Assembly: GCA_002104895.1 (NCBI GenBank)
Contig: MCFG01000120.1
Span: 97,773-161,772 of the forward strand
DNA: 64,000 bases
Reading direction: 5' to 3'
From: Anaeromyces robustus
Taxonomy: Eukaryota > Neocallimastigomycota > Neocallimastigomycetes > Neocallimastigales > Neocallimastigaceae
Positions 13,451 to 38,558 of the stretch are shown one piece after another. Position 1 is the first letter of the stretch. The number at the start of each line of letters is the position of its first letter. Made by a program: the position numbers and the translations under genes. The notes under the pieces are model-generated. The model was not told where the DNA came from. It was given only the letters and a program-made list of their open reading frames with translations, and searched no databases.

Positions 13451-17081
<3,631 letters not shown>

Positions 17082-25659: not shown

Positions 25660-28082
25660 ATGGTGGCAATTCTTCATTCAAAATCTCCAAAATCAATTCC
25701 TTGTACATCAAAAAAATCAAATCTATTTCAAAAAACTACAAAAGCTGATATTAAAAAAATTAATTTAGAGTTAAATTCACCTTCTACTTCAGATAAATGT
25801 ATATCACCTTCATCTAAATCAAACAGTCTTTATTATATACAAACTAAAAAGAATTCATCTAAATCATTAGTTCCATCTATTCCATCTTCATTACCTATTG
25901 ATAATAAAAGTAATTATCATCAACATTACCGTAACCCACTTGTTCTTTCAGTATCAAAAAATAGTACAAATTCAAATACTACATTAGAGGAAACCGCGTT
26001 TTCTGCGGATAATAGTATAGATTATTCCCCATTTGATAACACATTAGAAAAAAATAATTCGTTTCATCATTCATTTGATTTTCCTAATAAATACGGAAAA
26101 CGTACTGATATTCAGTCTTTTAAAGATACATTTACTGAATCAACAATATCTATTACTCCTCCTTCTACAACACCATCAACACCAACAACTCCTTTAACCC
26201 CTTCCTCAGTAAGTTCAAAAGATTTTGACTCATTAGATGAATCTCTTTCCTCTATTAAAGAATCAATAAAATCAAGAGATCTTATGTTAAAATTAAAGAA
26301 TACACCAACTTCTCAATTAAATACTCCAACTTTACCATCGACTTCAAGTCATTATACCACAACTAATACAACTAAAAATAAAAAAATTGACTGTGCTAAT
26401 ATTATTCACCATCCAAAAATTAATCGTAATAATAATAAAATACGTGATTCTATAAATTCTAATTTAATAATTTCTTCATCAAAATATAGTTCAAATAAAG
26501 AAATTAAGGACTGTATTTCTTCTCCTGACAATTTTGATTCCAAAATTTTTGATATAAATAAAGATACCATGACTTCGTCTATCACACATGTTATACCAAT
26601 TAAATCATCTAAATTGAAAAAAATATTACATAATCAATCATCCACTGAAATGAATAATATAAATAGAAAAGGTAAAATATCACCTGAATTCAAAGCATTA
26701 TGCAAGAAACTTTTAAAGGAAATACAACATCACGCAGATGCTGGACCTTTTTTAAATTCATTAGAAGAAATAATTACAAAAGACAAAATGAAAGAAAAAG
26801 AAGAAAAAGCAGTAAATAATAAATCAAAGGAAGAGAATATCAATCAAAAACATAATTTATTATCATCTGAAAATAATAAAAATAAAGGTAAAAATATAGA
26901 AAATACTGATAAATTTCTTTTATACTCAACTCATAATGAAGAAGACAAAATTGATCTTAATATTATTCAATGTCATCTTTTGGAAGATAAATATACCAAC
27001 CTTTATGAAGTTTTTTATGATTTACAACAAATGTTAAATCAATGTTATAGAAAGTATGTAAATGAAGATCATGTTATTCATCGTATGGGTAAAAATATTG
27101 AAGATTTTATGATAGAAAAATTTTTAGAAATGCCTGAAAATTTTAAAGAACAATGCGTTAATGATTATCATAGTAGCAAAATATATTCATCTTCTTCATT
27201 AATTCCTGCATTCATTAAAGTATTAGATTCTAAACTTGATAAAAAAGATTGGATAAAAACTGAAGAAAGCATTGATGATGATATTATAATAATACGACGT
27301 GAAGAACAAATTAAGGAATATAAAAAGAAAGAAAAAGAAAAACTATGTCATATTCTTGGTAATGATAATCAACTAAAATCAAAAAATAATTTTACAAGTA
27401 ATACGTTATTATCTTCATCTGATAAAAAACGTAAGCATGAATGTATTGATAATCAAGAAGAAAATAATACATCTTTATCTTCTAATAATAATATTTATTG
27501 GAATATCACATTAAAAAAGATACAACATATCAATCGTCATTTTAATAATCATTCTAATAAAAAAATAAAATTATTAGATCATAATATTAAGTCATTTACC
27601 CTATCATCATCAAGATTATCTGTTTTATCATCAAAATTAGAAAAAGGAAAGTCATTAATGCATCATCCAAAATATAGAAAGTGGGTTATTCATTTAAAAA
27701 GAAACCCTCATAACCAGAATTTCATTTTACCAAGAAATTACTTTCATTATTCAAATTCTAATTCATCCTGTAAAAATTTTATTTTCTATATACCATCTGA
27801 CATTTTAAAGAGTTCTCCATGGTCAAACTTATTTAACCACTTTACCATTAATACTCTATCATCATTAGAAAATAATAGTAAAAGCAAGAAACTTATTACT
27901 AGTATTCCAAAAAAACTTATTTCATCACCAGGTATATCTAAAAATGAAAGTAAAACTGAATTAATTGATATTTTAAAATCAGAAAATAAATTAATGAAAA
28001 ATGATGAAAAAGAAAATAAAACTGAATCTAAATTGGAAAAAGAGGATTCAATAATAGAAATATCTAATATAATGAGTAAGTC

Positions 28083-28132
<50 letters not shown>

Positions 28133-31100
28133 ATTACAAATATATATATATGTTAATTTTTAATTTAATTTTATTAATTATATAAAAATAACAAATAGAT
28201 AACCAAGAAGAGAAGAAAACAAATAATGAAATAATAATAGATCGATGTGATTCGTTAGATTCTGAATTTAATAGGGAAAATATAATGGAAAAAGAAGAAG
28301 AAAAATGTTTAATGAATTTATACTTTTTACCTCCAACACCACCTTCATCATCTCCACCATCTTCACCAATGAATATTTTAGATAATGAAGATATTATAGA
28401 AGATGAAGTAAAAGAAAAAGAAAAAGAAGGAAAGAAGGAAAATGAAATTGATTCCATGGTTGTAGATAAAATTGAAAATATTGAGTCCAATCAGAATGTA
28501 GAACAAAAAGAAAGTTCATTAAATAAAGATAAAATAAAGCTATTAGATAAAGGTAAAAAAGAAGAAGAAATTACTAAGAAATCTAAAACTTTATTAGAAA
28601 GAGATGATTTAAATAATACAATGACATCAACTAATGAACATTTAGACAAGAAATTAAATCAAACATTAAATCCTCTTGAATGGATGGATTCTAAAAAAGA
28701 TATTAAATCTTTGTTAGCAGGTATTGATTTACATTCTTTTAAAAAGGAACAAGATAATATTTTATTAACTCAAATTTTAATTAGACAACAAATTCAAAAC
28801 ATTATTGAAACGGAACGTTTAATTAATCATTTAAATATGAGTAGTGGAAATACTACTGGTATTCCTTCTTTATCATCATTATATCCTTTGAATGCTTTAG
28901 ATTTATCCTTAAATAATATATCACCTGTAACTAATGTAAATAATAACAATACACTTTTTTCTTCTTTAATAAATAACACTGTTAATGAATTTCCAAATCC
29001 ATTAGAAGATACATCTTATGATGTTACAAATGATTTTATTGATTGGGATAAAGCATGTGAAGATAATTTCTCAAATACCCAAGGAATGTTAAATGCAAAT
29101 TATCCTCAAGTATTAGACCCAACACTTTCATTTATTTCTAATACATCATCAGATATTATGAATGGTCTTAATTCCACTTTGAATGTTAATCTTTTAAATT
29201 ATTATAATAATGAAGAATTATATCCTTCATTCTTAAATTTGTCTTCATCATCTAATGATTTATTATCAAATATTTTTGATAATTCAAACAATTTTGAGGG
29301 TTTAAATTTAAATGAATTAACACCTGAAGAATTAAATTCATTAGTCAATACTAATTCAACTACTACTTCACCTCTTGATTTGTCTACATTAACCATGAAT
29401 AATGCTATAAACTTAAATTCACTATTAGATACACCTTCTACAGTTTCATTGAATAATGCTAATTTAGCTCTTAATTCCATACCATGCTCCTCTAAATTAT
29501 TAGCTAATACAGCAACTATTCCTTTAAACAATAAAAATATATCCATGAATTTAAATACATTGCATGGTTTAGATGATCCAACCACTCAAGAACTTCATGG
29601 ATTATCTACAAACATACATAATTCACCTATTAATATTGACACATTACCATTACATTATTCTCGTGCATATTCTTCATTATTATCAAATACATCTTTATCT
29701 TCAACACCACCATCTACTTTATTAAATGGTAGTTTTAAACATCATCGCCACATTACAAGTAATAATTTATTTACAACAGCTTCTAATATAGCTACTTCTC
29801 TTACTGCTGCTTCAACAAAATTAGCAGCAAAAATGAATCAAAATAAGTTTCAAATCTTAAATGAACAGCAACAAAAACAATCAAACCAATTAAAAGAAAT
29901 AAAACAAAATCAAGAACAACATCATCAACAACAAAAACAAAAATTACAACAAGAACAAAGTTATGAACAAAAACCAGAACAAAACTCAGAACAAAAATTA
30001 GAACAAAACTCAGAACAAAAATCAGAACAAAAATCAGAACAAAAATTAGAACAAAAATCAGAACAAAGATTAGAACAAAAATCAGAACAAAGATTAGAAC
30101 AAAAATTGGAACAAAAATCAGAACAAAAATCAGAACAAAAATCAGAACAAAAATCGGAACAAAAATCAGAACAAGAACCAGAACAAGAACCAAAACAAGA
30201 AAATAAAAAACAAGAAAATCAAATAAAGAATCAAGAAAATATAACTGAAATAACAAATATTACTTCAACTACGTTTAATCCAATTAAAACTTTTACTGAA
30301 ATAATAAATAGTCCTATTAAAACAAATACAAATAATTTAACAACTTTAGATCCATCTTCTTTATTAATTCTACCATCAATTGAAAAGAAAGTTGATATTT
30401 TAGATGAAAAATTATTATCATCAGTAAAAAAGTCAGAAGCTATAGTAACTGAAGCAATTACAACACCATCACTTAATTCTACAAATGATACAAAAAATCC
30501 TATCGATAGAGCTAATTCAATTATCCATTCTACAATGATAACTGAACCAGCATTAATTCTTCCATCGCCCACATCAGATGTTATGTTAAGTGGTGGTACA
30601 AATGAAAATGATGAATGTCAAGAAAGTTTGTCATTACTATCCAATAATACTTCATTAGAAGTTGATGGCCCTTCAGCCATTCTTTCTATTCATAATTCGG
30701 ATGATTATTTATCATCACCTAATTACTCTTGCTATGATTTATTATTAAATCTTAATAATAATTGTAATGAAACACTTATATCTGAAATGGCGAATCATGA
30801 AACTGTTCAAAATTTAACAGTTGAAAAGGAAAAGGAATTAAACAATGAAAAAAAAAATGAAAATAAACTTGATTTAAAAGAAAATAATAATTTAGACATA
30901 GAAAAGAGAATTTCTATTTTACAAGAAAAAGAAATATCAAATAAAAATATAGATCTTAAAAATGAAGAAAAAACTATAGTTTCTATGGAAAATATCCAGG
31001 AAGAAAATTCATCAAAACTCGAAACTGTTAATAAAATCATTAAAAAGGATGATCCTATGGAAGTAGATCCAAAAGAAGAAAATGAAGAAGTTGTAAAAAT

Positions 31101-32928
31101 AGAAGAAAAGATTGAACCAAAATCTAAATCCGAAAGAATTACTATATCCCTTGATTTGTCACATGGAAGGGATAACAGAAAAAAATTAGATGAAGATGAT
31201 GAGGATGATGAAGAAGAGGAAGATTATATGGAAGAAGATGATGAAGAAGTTGAAGATAATGAAGATGAAGAAGATGAAGAAGAAGATGAAGAAGAGGAAG
31301 AAGATGAAGAAGAAGATGATGATGAAGATGAAGATGAAGATGAAGATGAAATAATTGAAAAAGCTGAAATAGAAGAAGATGATAAAGAAGAAATAATGGA
31401 AGAAGATGAAGAAGAAGAAGAAGAAGAAGATGTTGATGAAGAAGAAAATAAAGAAGATATTAATGATAATGAAGAAGAAGATGATGACGATGATGAAGAA
31501 TCAACATTATCTTTAATGGATATAAAGCGTATAAAACAAAGTCAAAATGAAACTTTACATTCAAAAATTAATATTAATGTTAAAAATAATAATAAAATTA
31601 CTAGAACAAGTATTCGAATTACACCACTTATTCCAAAAATTATTGTACATAATCGTAAAGAAAGAAAAAGTAATAAAAGAATGGATCTTGATTCAACTCA
31701 TCCTAACTATGTTGATGTTCAACAAATTATGTTAGATGATGTAACAGAAAATGTTTTTGATATTGAAAGTATTAATCAAGAAATATTAACAAAAATCAAA
31801 AAGAATCTTTCTAATAGAAAATCTATGAATTCTAATATTACTGGTTCTCTTTTAAATAAAGCAAATAATAATACTAATAAAAAAGATAGAATAATAAATC
31901 TTAGTAAATTATTATTAAAAGAAAACAGAAATAAAAAATTAATTAAAAAATCAATAGAAACACCTCGTATAGTAAAAAGAAAAAGAGGAAGATATTCATT
32001 AAAATCTCAAACATTATCAGAAACAAATCAAGAAAAGATTAGTAAAATTTTAAAAGTAACTCCAATACAAACACCAACACCAGCATCAACACCAGCATCA
32101 TCACCAATACCATTATCAACCACAACAACACTAACATCAACATCAATATCAGCATCAGCATCAATATCAACATCAATATCGACATCAGTATCAACACCAA
32201 TATCAACACCAACATCAACATCAACACCAATATCAACACCAACATCAACACCAACAAGAGGTAAAGGTAGACCAAAAGGACATTGTGGTAGACCAAGAAA
32301 AAGATGGCCAAATGAACAAGTTATTCTAGATACTAAAAAAGAACTTTATAATGCTAATAAAGAAAATAAAGAAACCAAATTTAAAGTAGAAGAAAATGGC
32401 AATACTCTTTATATTAAACCAGAATTAAAAGAAAAATCAAATGAAAGTATTATTACTCAAGTTTCTGTTACAACTAGTTCATCCGTTGATCCAATTACAG
32501 TTATTACATCAACTGTTCCATCATCAATTATTACTTCTACAAGAAATAGTCATTTCTATTCTACATCTCCAAAACAATGTACTTATTGTGGATCTACTAG
32601 TACTCCATTATGGCGTCATGGACCCCCAGAATCACCTAGATTATGTAATAGTTGTGGTGTAAAATGGAAACGTGGTAAAATTCTTCAATCTCAACCTTCT
32701 GGTTTTCCATGGAATTCTATTTCAGTAGATAAAAAAACGGAAGAATTTCGTTCTTTAATGCGTTGTATTACTTCTGAAAAAGTTTTAAAAGTATTAGGCA
32801 TTTTAAAAACATGTATGACAATTGCTATGAAACGTCAATTAGATCGTGGTGAAGAAGTAAAAATTGATATTCGTAATATTGACTCAAGGGCTTGGTGTCA
32901 ATTATATCGTTATATTAAATGTCAATAA
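25660..32928 (+). CDS. Bromodomain-like / AT-hook / GATA zinc finger / NET-like chromatin protein, 2381 aa
   Basis: Two exons, 25660-28075 and 28199-32928 (7146 nt). The start ATG follows a purine-rich leader. Residues ~343-490 read as a divergent bromodomain: FKALCKKLLKEIQHH and AGPFLNSLEE for the first helix, a low-complexity insertion (~378-425), then KIDLNIIQCHLLEDKYTNLY, FYDLQQMLNQCYRKY and DHVIHRMGKNIEDFM. Then come Ser/Asn-rich sequence, an EQK repeat block (~1390-1470), an acidic Glu/Asp tract (~1800-1906), two AT-hook-like motifs (GKGRPKG, CGRPRKR near 2160-2175), a GATA finger C2266-x2-C2269-x18-C2288-x2-C2291 (STSTPLWRHGPPESPRLCNS), and a C-terminus (~2318-2381) resembling the NET/ET module of BET proteins (EEVKIDIRNIDSRAWCQLYR). 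A nuclear role in chromatin-linked transcription is likely. GATA finger certain; bromodomain and NET calls are pattern matches by eye. Confidence 0.85.
28082..28130 (+). repeat. (TTA)n in the intron of the GATA gene
   Basis: The intron 28076-28198 has a perfect GTAAGT donor and CAAATAG acceptor. Its TTA run, if unspliced, reads as poly-Tyr and then hits TAA at 28129-28131, giving an 823-residue truncated product. Confidence 0.85.
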
Positions 32929-35202
<2,274 letters not shown>

Positions 35203-37362
35203 ATGTCATCGTCAAGTGAGAAAGTGAATAAAATTGTTAATATTCTTAATAAAATATATATTATTTCTTTATTTTTTTAATGATTATAATATATAAAAAA
35301 TCAATAACTAAACTATTAATTTATTTTTTTATGTCTATAATTCTTTATTCATATAATTAATCATTTATATTTTTTCCTATATTTTATAATTAATTTTTTT
35401 ACTTTTTTTTTTTTTTCTATCTGAAAAATCAATTATTCTTCTTTTTTTTAACTTTTTATTACTATTATACATCAATTTATCTTAAATTCTGGATATTTTA
35501 GTTGACAGTAAATAATAATGGTATATATATATCTGGAAAAAAAAAATTAAAACTACATTAAAAATAAACATTTTTTAATATATATATATATTATTAATTA
35601 TAAATATATTTCTTTATATGTTTTATTAAATATAATTAAACTAAAAATATTATTTATAACTTTTTTATATTATTCATATTGTATATGCTTTTTGATACGT
35701 TTTTATTGTTTAAATAATAATTAATTATAAAATTCTATTATCTAAAAATATATTTTAATATATATAATATAATACAACATATAATAAAATATAAATGTTC
35801 ATTAATAATATATATATTTTTTTAAATGAACAATAGAAACAAAACTGAGAAAGCATCGAAGTGATATAACGAATGGTGGTACATGTATTACTCCAAATAG
35901 TCCTCAAGAAAAAAATACAAGAGAAAAAAGAGATGGTATAAAGAGTCCAGAAGGAAATAAAATACATTTTAAAGAAGAAGATTGTAATTAAATAATATAT
36001 ATATATATATTTATATCTAAATACACTAGTATTCCATATATATAATAACATTTAATAATATAAAACGAATATCTTAATAATGTCTTTAATAATATTATTT
36101 TTTATATTTGTTAATTTATCATTATTTAAATTTATTTATTAAATATTTAATTAATAACCATATATATATATATATTCTTTTTAACAATATATTTACACTT
36201 TATAAAATAAAATAATATTTGAATTAATAAATATAAGTAAAAAGGAAAAGTATAATTTTAAATAATAATTTAATTACAAAAGATATCGAAGCTATTGATT
36301 TTAAACAAAATACAGTTTGTGATGATGATAATGATGATGATGAAAAAGAAGAATGTGACATTAATCTCGAAGCTATAAAAACCATGAATGCTGAAACAAT
36401 TGTTGAAAGTGGTTATTTATATAGACGTTCTTCAAAATTAAAAGTAATAAAATAATTTTAAATTACTAAAATATTCATATTGATTTCAACAATTTTAAAA
36501 AATTCATTTTTTAAAATTTTAATTGAAAAAAAAAAAAAAAATTTTTTATTAAACAATATAAATTTATTAATATATCATAAAAATCTTAATTCAAAATTTA
36601 TATTTAAAGAGTTGGAAAAAGAGTTGGTTTGTTTTAAGAAAAACAAAATTAGCATGCTATAAAAATGATAAAGTACTATTAATGTTTATTTATATTATTA
36701 TTAGTTATATATAATATTACTTAATATATATATACATATATATATGTCTTATATAATATTAATTTTTTGCTGCATAAAATTAAAAATATAAAATTTTTAG
36801 GAATATAAATTAATGAATGTAATAGATATTAGTTCAATACATAGAGTTGGTAAAGTAAAAGTTTCAAGACCTAATGTATTTGGTATTGTTACATTACCCC
36901 GCACATATTATATGCAAGGCACTAATGAAAATGAAGTAGATAAATGGTTAAAATCAATAAAAGAATTAATAAAGATTAATTCAAATGAAACTAGTAATTT
37001 GGGCACTAATCGTATAAAGAAATTATCATTATCTGATAATCAGATACATGTAAAAAGTCATCATTGTAAAGAAGGAAGTGGTGATATAATTATTAAAAAA
37101 CACATTAATAAAGGTCATGAATTATTAAGACTTAATAATAACAACATTACAAATAATAATAATACAATAGTTCAATCTCCTATATCAATGAATAGTACCA
37201 ATGATATTACCTCATCAAATAATACCAATAATAACAATACTAATAATAGAAACAACAACAACCATAATAATAATAATGATAATAGTGATAATAATAATGA
37301 TAATAATGATAATAATGATAATAATGATAATAATGATAATAATGATAATAATGATAATAATG

Positions 37363-37417
<55 letters not shown>

Positions 37418-37642
37418 CAATAATAATAATGATAATAGTAATAATATTAATAATAATAACAATAATAATATTAATAACAGTAAGAATGACAACAACAATA
37501 TAACCAATAATGAAAACCATAATAATAATATTGATATTAATAATAACAATGATAATAGTAATAATAATGGCAACAATAATATAACCAATAATGAAAATCA
37601 TAGTAATAATAATAGTAATAATAATAATAAAGATAATAACGA

Positions 37643-37686
<44 letters not shown>

Positions 37687-38558
37687 TAAAGGGAAATCAT
37701 AATGAAGAATCACTAATGAAAAAAAATATAAATAAACCTATGCCAATACACACTTCTTTAAATGATATACATACATCAAGTCCTAAAGTAAAATTTATAC
37801 AATCAGCTGGTGTTGTAGAATCTAAATCAATTAATAGTACTAATCTATATACTTCACGATCTTGTAGTAATAGTAATCATATTAATGAAATTAAATCGGC
37901 TAGACCTTATAATGATAATGGTAATGATGATTGTTCAAGTAGTGAAGAAAATCTTTTTATAACAAATCCACTTACAGGAAATAATTTATTAAATGATAAT
38001 ATTATTATTCGTCAAGGATATCTTCTTCGTCAAAGTTCTAAATATAAAACATGGAAAAAAAGATGGTTTGTTTTACGTAATGGTAAATTGACATGTTATA
38101 AAAATGAAAAGGTAAAAAATTTAATATTAAAAGTCTCTTTCTCTCTCTCTATATATATATATATACTATTTAAATTAAAAAATTAACAAATATATGTTTT
38201 AAAACTTTGAGTAAAATAATAAAATGATCTTCAAAATTATTAGTTTTATTAACAAAAAAAAAAAAATTTACTAATTAATAAATAATTTTATTAACATTGT
38301 TATTATAATTATTATATACTATATTATTAGGAATATGTTGTAATATCAATAATACCATTATCAGAAACTCTAGATATTATTGAGACAGAAAAACCTATGG
38401 GTAAATCACATAAATACTGCTTTAAAATTATTACTGAAGGTAAAACTATGATTTTATGTTCAGAAACTGAAGAAGACTTTAATAACTGGATATCTGATCT
38501 TCAAAAGTATCATAAAGTAATTCAAGATATAAAAGAAAAACATGGAATTGATGAATAA
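35203..38558 (+). CDS. Tandem pleckstrin-homology (PH) domain protein, ~649 aa
   Basis: Exons: 35203-35223, 35502-35520, 35837-35983, 36283-36443, 36610-36672, 36801-38111, 38331-38558 (1950 nt). Exon 2 is only 19 nt. The donor of exon 1 (GTGAAT, or GTTAAT 15 nt later) is uncertain; both keep frame. PH1 starts VESGYLYRRSSKLK, continues SWKKSWFVLRKTKLACYKN and ends with the tryptophan helix DKWLKSIKELI. PH2 starts IRQGYLLRQSSKYKTWKKRW and ends DFNNWISDLQKYHKVI. Between them is a ~300-residue linker with very long Asn/Asp runs. Both domains have the basic beta1-beta2 loop (K..K.W.K.W/RW) used by many PH domains to bind phosphoinositides, so membrane-linked signalling is likely; lipid specificity cannot be read. 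The layout resembles tandem-PH adaptors such as TAPP proteins, without evidence of orthology. Confidence 0.85.
37228..37685 (+). repeat. AAT/GAT triplet repeat coding poly-Asn/Asp in the PH-domain gene
   Basis: This in-frame tract encodes Asn runs with a 9-nt NND period (AATGATAAT) at about 37298-37366. A larger internal duplication is visible: the phrase NNITNNENH occurs twice, near 37495 and 37576. Open frames in the other frames and on the minus strand here are shadows. Confidence 0.9.

Follow-up and report, generated by a model that had tools for sequence, protein, structure and literature searches.

The 64-kb window (the whole stretch of DNA analysed) encodes on its forward strand (25660-32928) what is probably a divergent third member of a BET-derived protein subfamily, characterized by a GATA-type zinc finger placed just before the NET/ET domain. 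The two other members, named C210 and C99 after their contigs in the same genome, carry all three domains at full strength, while the window copy seems, from its residues, to have lost the acetyl-lysine-reading pocket and to retain the finger and the recruitment part.

The window gene consists of two exons and one 123-bp intron. Open frames at 25660-28131 and 28285-32928 are joined in frame, with no internal stops, by a predicted intron read from the sequence (28076..28198, +; GTAAGT...AATAG); exon 1 (25660..28075, +) encodes residues 1-805 and ends one base into codon 806, and exon 2 (28199..32928, +) runs from the rest of this codon to residue 2381 and the stop. The resulting 2381 aa equal the length implied by the residue numbers of an earlier note, which had read the locus as a single protein. 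GC content is 5.7% in the predicted intron and 24% and 26% in exons 1 and 2, respectively, against a background of 11-25% per 2 kb across the window. Directly after the donor lies a TAT/TTA trinucleotide repeat (28083-28131), because of which exon 1 can read on as poly-tyrosine to 28131. That exon 1 (bromodomain-like) and exon 2 (AT-hooks, GATA finger and NET) represent separate genes is nonetheless very improbable: although exon 1 would find its own stop at the end of this repeat, the GC-poor intron is flanked by a consensus donor (GTAAGT) and an acceptor (TAG) that keeps the frame, and in both paralogs a single frame holds these domains in the order seen here.

Elsewhere in the window, we noted a protein with an arrestin C-terminal domain (13974-15290, −; Pfam 2.2e-10), a 216-aa frame without a Pfam match that may be an upstream exon of the arrestin gene (15608-16258, −), and a PH-domain protein whose two PH stretches are separated by a very long run of Asn/Asp (36813-38186, +; Pfam 1.6e-13). 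When the genome was searched for fungal dockerins of the CBM_10 family, 150 of 683 candidates were scored, and the 150 listed matches exceeded the cut-off. Dockerins and GC content suggest an anaerobic gut fungus (Neocallimastigomycota).

The GATA finger of the window protein, spanning residues 2266-2300 (32578..32682, +), comprises a CX2CX18CX2C core followed by a basic tail, falls within the general CX2CX17-20CX2C spacing and matches Pfam GATA (PF00320) at 1e-11 when exon 2 is scanned and at 5e-13 when the C-terminal piece is scanned. All four cysteines are kept, and the finger is identical to that of C210 at 22/35 and to that of C99 at 23/35 residues. A motif scan located two AT-hook-like GRP cores just upstream, GKGRPKG and CGRPRKR (residues 2160-2174, with the cores at 2162 and 2169; 32260..32304, +), and none in the C210 and C99 frames. 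Both the finger, with its 18 residues between the CxxC pairs, and the AT-hooks had been proposed earlier and were thus recovered. By composition, an acidic region occupies residues 1789-1917 (31147..31533, +).

Whole-genome profile scans (70.17 Mb, 769 contigs) yielded 12 GATA, 25 bromodomain and 4 NET matches. C210 and C99 each occupy one stop-to-stop frame, of 786 aa (Pfam Bromodomain 1.1e-21, GATA 3.4e-12, BET(NET) 4.9e-23) and 1012 aa (3.8e-20, 2.4e-12 and 1.3e-21), respectively, and share the order bromodomain-GATA-NET with the window protein. As these frames are uninterrupted, the fusion is not an artefact of gene prediction. The two paralogs are alignable over the bromodomain (50% over 156) and over GATA-NET (48% over 191); a motif-B-like coil separates these blocks, and a Ser/Glu/Asp-rich tail follows at the C-terminus. 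The C210 coil had no PDB match up to E 1, and BLAST to the coil of a third protein, C312, retrieved that of C99 only at E 5.0 and that of C210 not at all. Among solved structures, the C210 NET matched the ET domains of BRD3, BRD4 and BRD2 (2e-10 to 1.3e-9) as well as S. pombe Bdf1 (9e-8); the C210 bromodomain matched polybromo-1 best and BRD4 second, and for the C210 finger, GATA-3, plant GATA18 and fungal AreA were among the structures listed. BLAST of the window protein against C210/C99 recovered the second half of the bromodomain (5e-5/4.5e-5) and the GATA finger (2e-15/4e-15) with the order kept; the window NET matched C99 at 0.006 and gave no match to C210. A reverse-transcriptase-like frame of 798 aa, recognized by eye, lies near the C99 gene (locus L022:747-3143, −).

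The bromodomain-like region of the window protein (residues 341-505; 26680..27174, +) remains just under the Pfam cut-off (E 4.4e-4; 20.6 vs. 21.7 bits), with only the second half matched. Profile comparison using hhalign aligned both halves with 12 bromodomains from elsewhere in the genome (102 columns, probability 92, E 6.6e-7). None of 2000 shuffles inside 50-residue blocks came up to its profile score of 16.6 bits (best 13.0); 1187 of them gave any reported match, and 500 full shuffles scored 5.3 at best. The region is predicted to fold into a left-handed four-helix bundle; in Foldseek, neither this model nor that of the window NET found a match with E <= 0.001.

Pocket residues of the bromodomain-like region have been lost. 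The PVDP..PDY..PMD signature of the ZA loop is replaced by ~60 low-complexity residues (372-430; 26773..26949, +), encoded by DNA whose GC content (19.5% over 26766-26950) is nearer to that of the exons than to that of the intron. In the BC loop (QCYRKYVN, residues 461-468; 27040..27063, +), V467 stands in the column of the acetyl-lysine-anchoring asparagine, with N468 next to it. This asparagine is kept in 12/12 other rows of the pocket alignment, drawn from the 25 genome matches; overall, N, P, Y, P and M, present in all 12, have become Val, Asn, Lys, Lys and Ile, and the window row agrees with the others at four of nine inspected columns (the D of PMD, F, the helix D and C). Having lost both the acetyl-lysine loop and the anchoring asparagine, the window copy should therefore not be called a working bromodomain.

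A divergent NET/ET domain forms the very end of the window protein (residues 2317-2381; 32731..32925, +). It was missed by the Pfam scan of exon 2 and by the whole-genome NET scan with its four matches, and was detected just below the cut-off when the C-terminal 138 aa were scanned alone (E 1.1e-4; 22.7 vs. 24.5 bits). Using hhalign, it aligned with the NETs of C210, C99 and C312 over 55 columns (probability 89.9, E 1.7e-6). Its profile score of 10.0 bits was reached by one of 2000 block shuffles (best 11.8), 1222 of which gave any reported match, and the best of 500 full shuffles scored 6.0. Foldseek listed no ET domain for the model; the best second-look chains were those of the AF9 AHD. Pfam by itself leaves the calls of bromodomain and NET marginal; they become firm because two paralogs carry full-strength versions, and in this sense the bromodomain-like region and NET-like tail of the earlier note both held.

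According to PMC7813845, two tandem bromodomains, a motif B and a SEED region are features of BET proteins. The window protein has one degenerate bromodomain-like region as judged by Pfam and alignment, scores below zero against a profile built from three motif-B-like coils and ends at the NET, leaving no SEED-type tail; we therefore refer to it as BET-derived rather than BET. C210 and C99 share with the family the NET/ET domain near the C-terminus, as does the window protein, and one bromodomain match each was found on their contigs, with the genome searched exon by exon.

Could the window gene be a duplicated BET-GATA gene that is now decaying and has no present function? Its missing ZA loop, asparagine, coil and tail, its sub-threshold NET and the low-complexity sequence swelling the protein are what such decay might leave behind, but exons open across 2.4 and 4.7 kb at 24-26% GC, splice sites in frame and a finger that keeps its four cysteines along with 22 or 23 of the 35 paralog residues make this improbable.

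The genome also encodes other bromodomain proteins. C312, on which no GATA match was found, is an ordinary BET protein with two bromodomains and a NET that an intron interrupts; C301 has two bromodomains, with no NET match listed there. C82 (locus L026:876-5399, −) contains a frame of 1508 aa in which Pfam marks six bromodomain stretches (5.7e-132), a number reminiscent of polybromo; by eye, several of these bromodomains look BET-like. The occurrence of the GATA form alongside an ordinary BET gene fits the gain of a finger by a BET copy, the direction of change that we infer. A bromodomain tree, in which 0/15 inner branches were well supported, did not bring the window protein together with C210 and C99, so that their common descent rests on the shared order and on the GATA and NET blocks. 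The earlier idea of a BET-derived factor with a gained GATA finger is supported by the full-strength paralogs and by C312; it did not include the loss of the pocket in the window copy.

With respect to the finger's function, alanine is typical of the usual GATA motif LCNACG; this position holds Lys in C210 and C99, Ser in the window copy and Ala in the fingers of C712 and C246. This substitution, together with PDB entries of GATA fingers complexed with proteins (1y0j, GATA-1/FOG; 2vus, NmrA-AreA), would suit a protein- or RNA-binding zinc ribbon that does not bind DNA, making the proteins BET scaffolds to which a further interaction module has been added. We consider this unlikely, since the fingers fit the general GATA model well (3e-12 to 5e-13), two AT-hook cores lie beside the finger in the window copy, and the C712 finger (locus L024:2527-2691, +), which keeps both the alanine and an 18-residue loop, is identical to those of C210 and C99 at 26/35 residues each. 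No NET match was listed on the C712 contig in the genome scan, and its finger could be the donor, or a sister, of the fused one.

Taking the finger as DNA-binding, the bromodomain of C210 and C99 would read acetyl-lysine, and the finger would direct the protein to GATA-type sites, where transcription or chromatin partners would be recruited by the NET. With all three in one chain, a single polypeptide could replace the pair of BET protein and GATA factor that performs this work in animals. In the window copy, chromatin reading would be lost, the protein may stay on AT-rich DNA by way of its AT-hooks and GATA finger, and its long acidic region and divergent NET might recruit, or compete for, the same partners. 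Tentatively, a BET branch may have given rise to self-targeting transcription factors by acquiring a GATA finger and duplicated, with the window descendant dropping acetyl-lysine reading to become a DNA-directed recruiter or competitor in a genome that is extremely AT-rich; we give this scenario somewhat less than even odds.

The prevailing view is that BET proteins locate their target genes via acetylated chromatin and partner factors. A BET-GATA finger fusion occurring in nature would provide a test of how far DNA sequence can take over targeting, and a paralog devoid of the acetyl-lysine pocket would be a natural case of recruitment uncoupled from reading. No description of such a fusion was found among the literature matches listed.

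Among known systems, the BET family (BRD2/3/4/T, Fs(1)h and yeast Bdf1/Bdf2) shares with these proteins a bromodomain ahead of a NET/ET domain (PF17035). C210 and C99 additionally have a coil resembling motif B and a tail rich in Ser, Glu and Asp that may correspond to the SEED region. The differences lie in one bromodomain instead of two and in the GATA finger, located between coil and NET in C210 and C99; the window copy further lacks the acetyl-lysine loop, asparagine, coil and tail, and has AT-hooks added. Plant GTE proteins combine a single bromodomain with a NET and are not known to carry a GATA finger. The AF9 AHD and related ET-like folds also rank among the nearest systems. A class of GATA transcription factors whose finger loop spans 18 residues has the same CX2CX18CX2C finger and basic tail; here, this finger is fused to a bromodomain and a NET. 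The closest parallel in function comes from animal blood cells, where BRD3 binds acetylated GATA1 (PMC5133849); the same pairing of BET bromodomain and GATA factor, formed there by two proteins in trans, would be mirrored here within one polypeptide.
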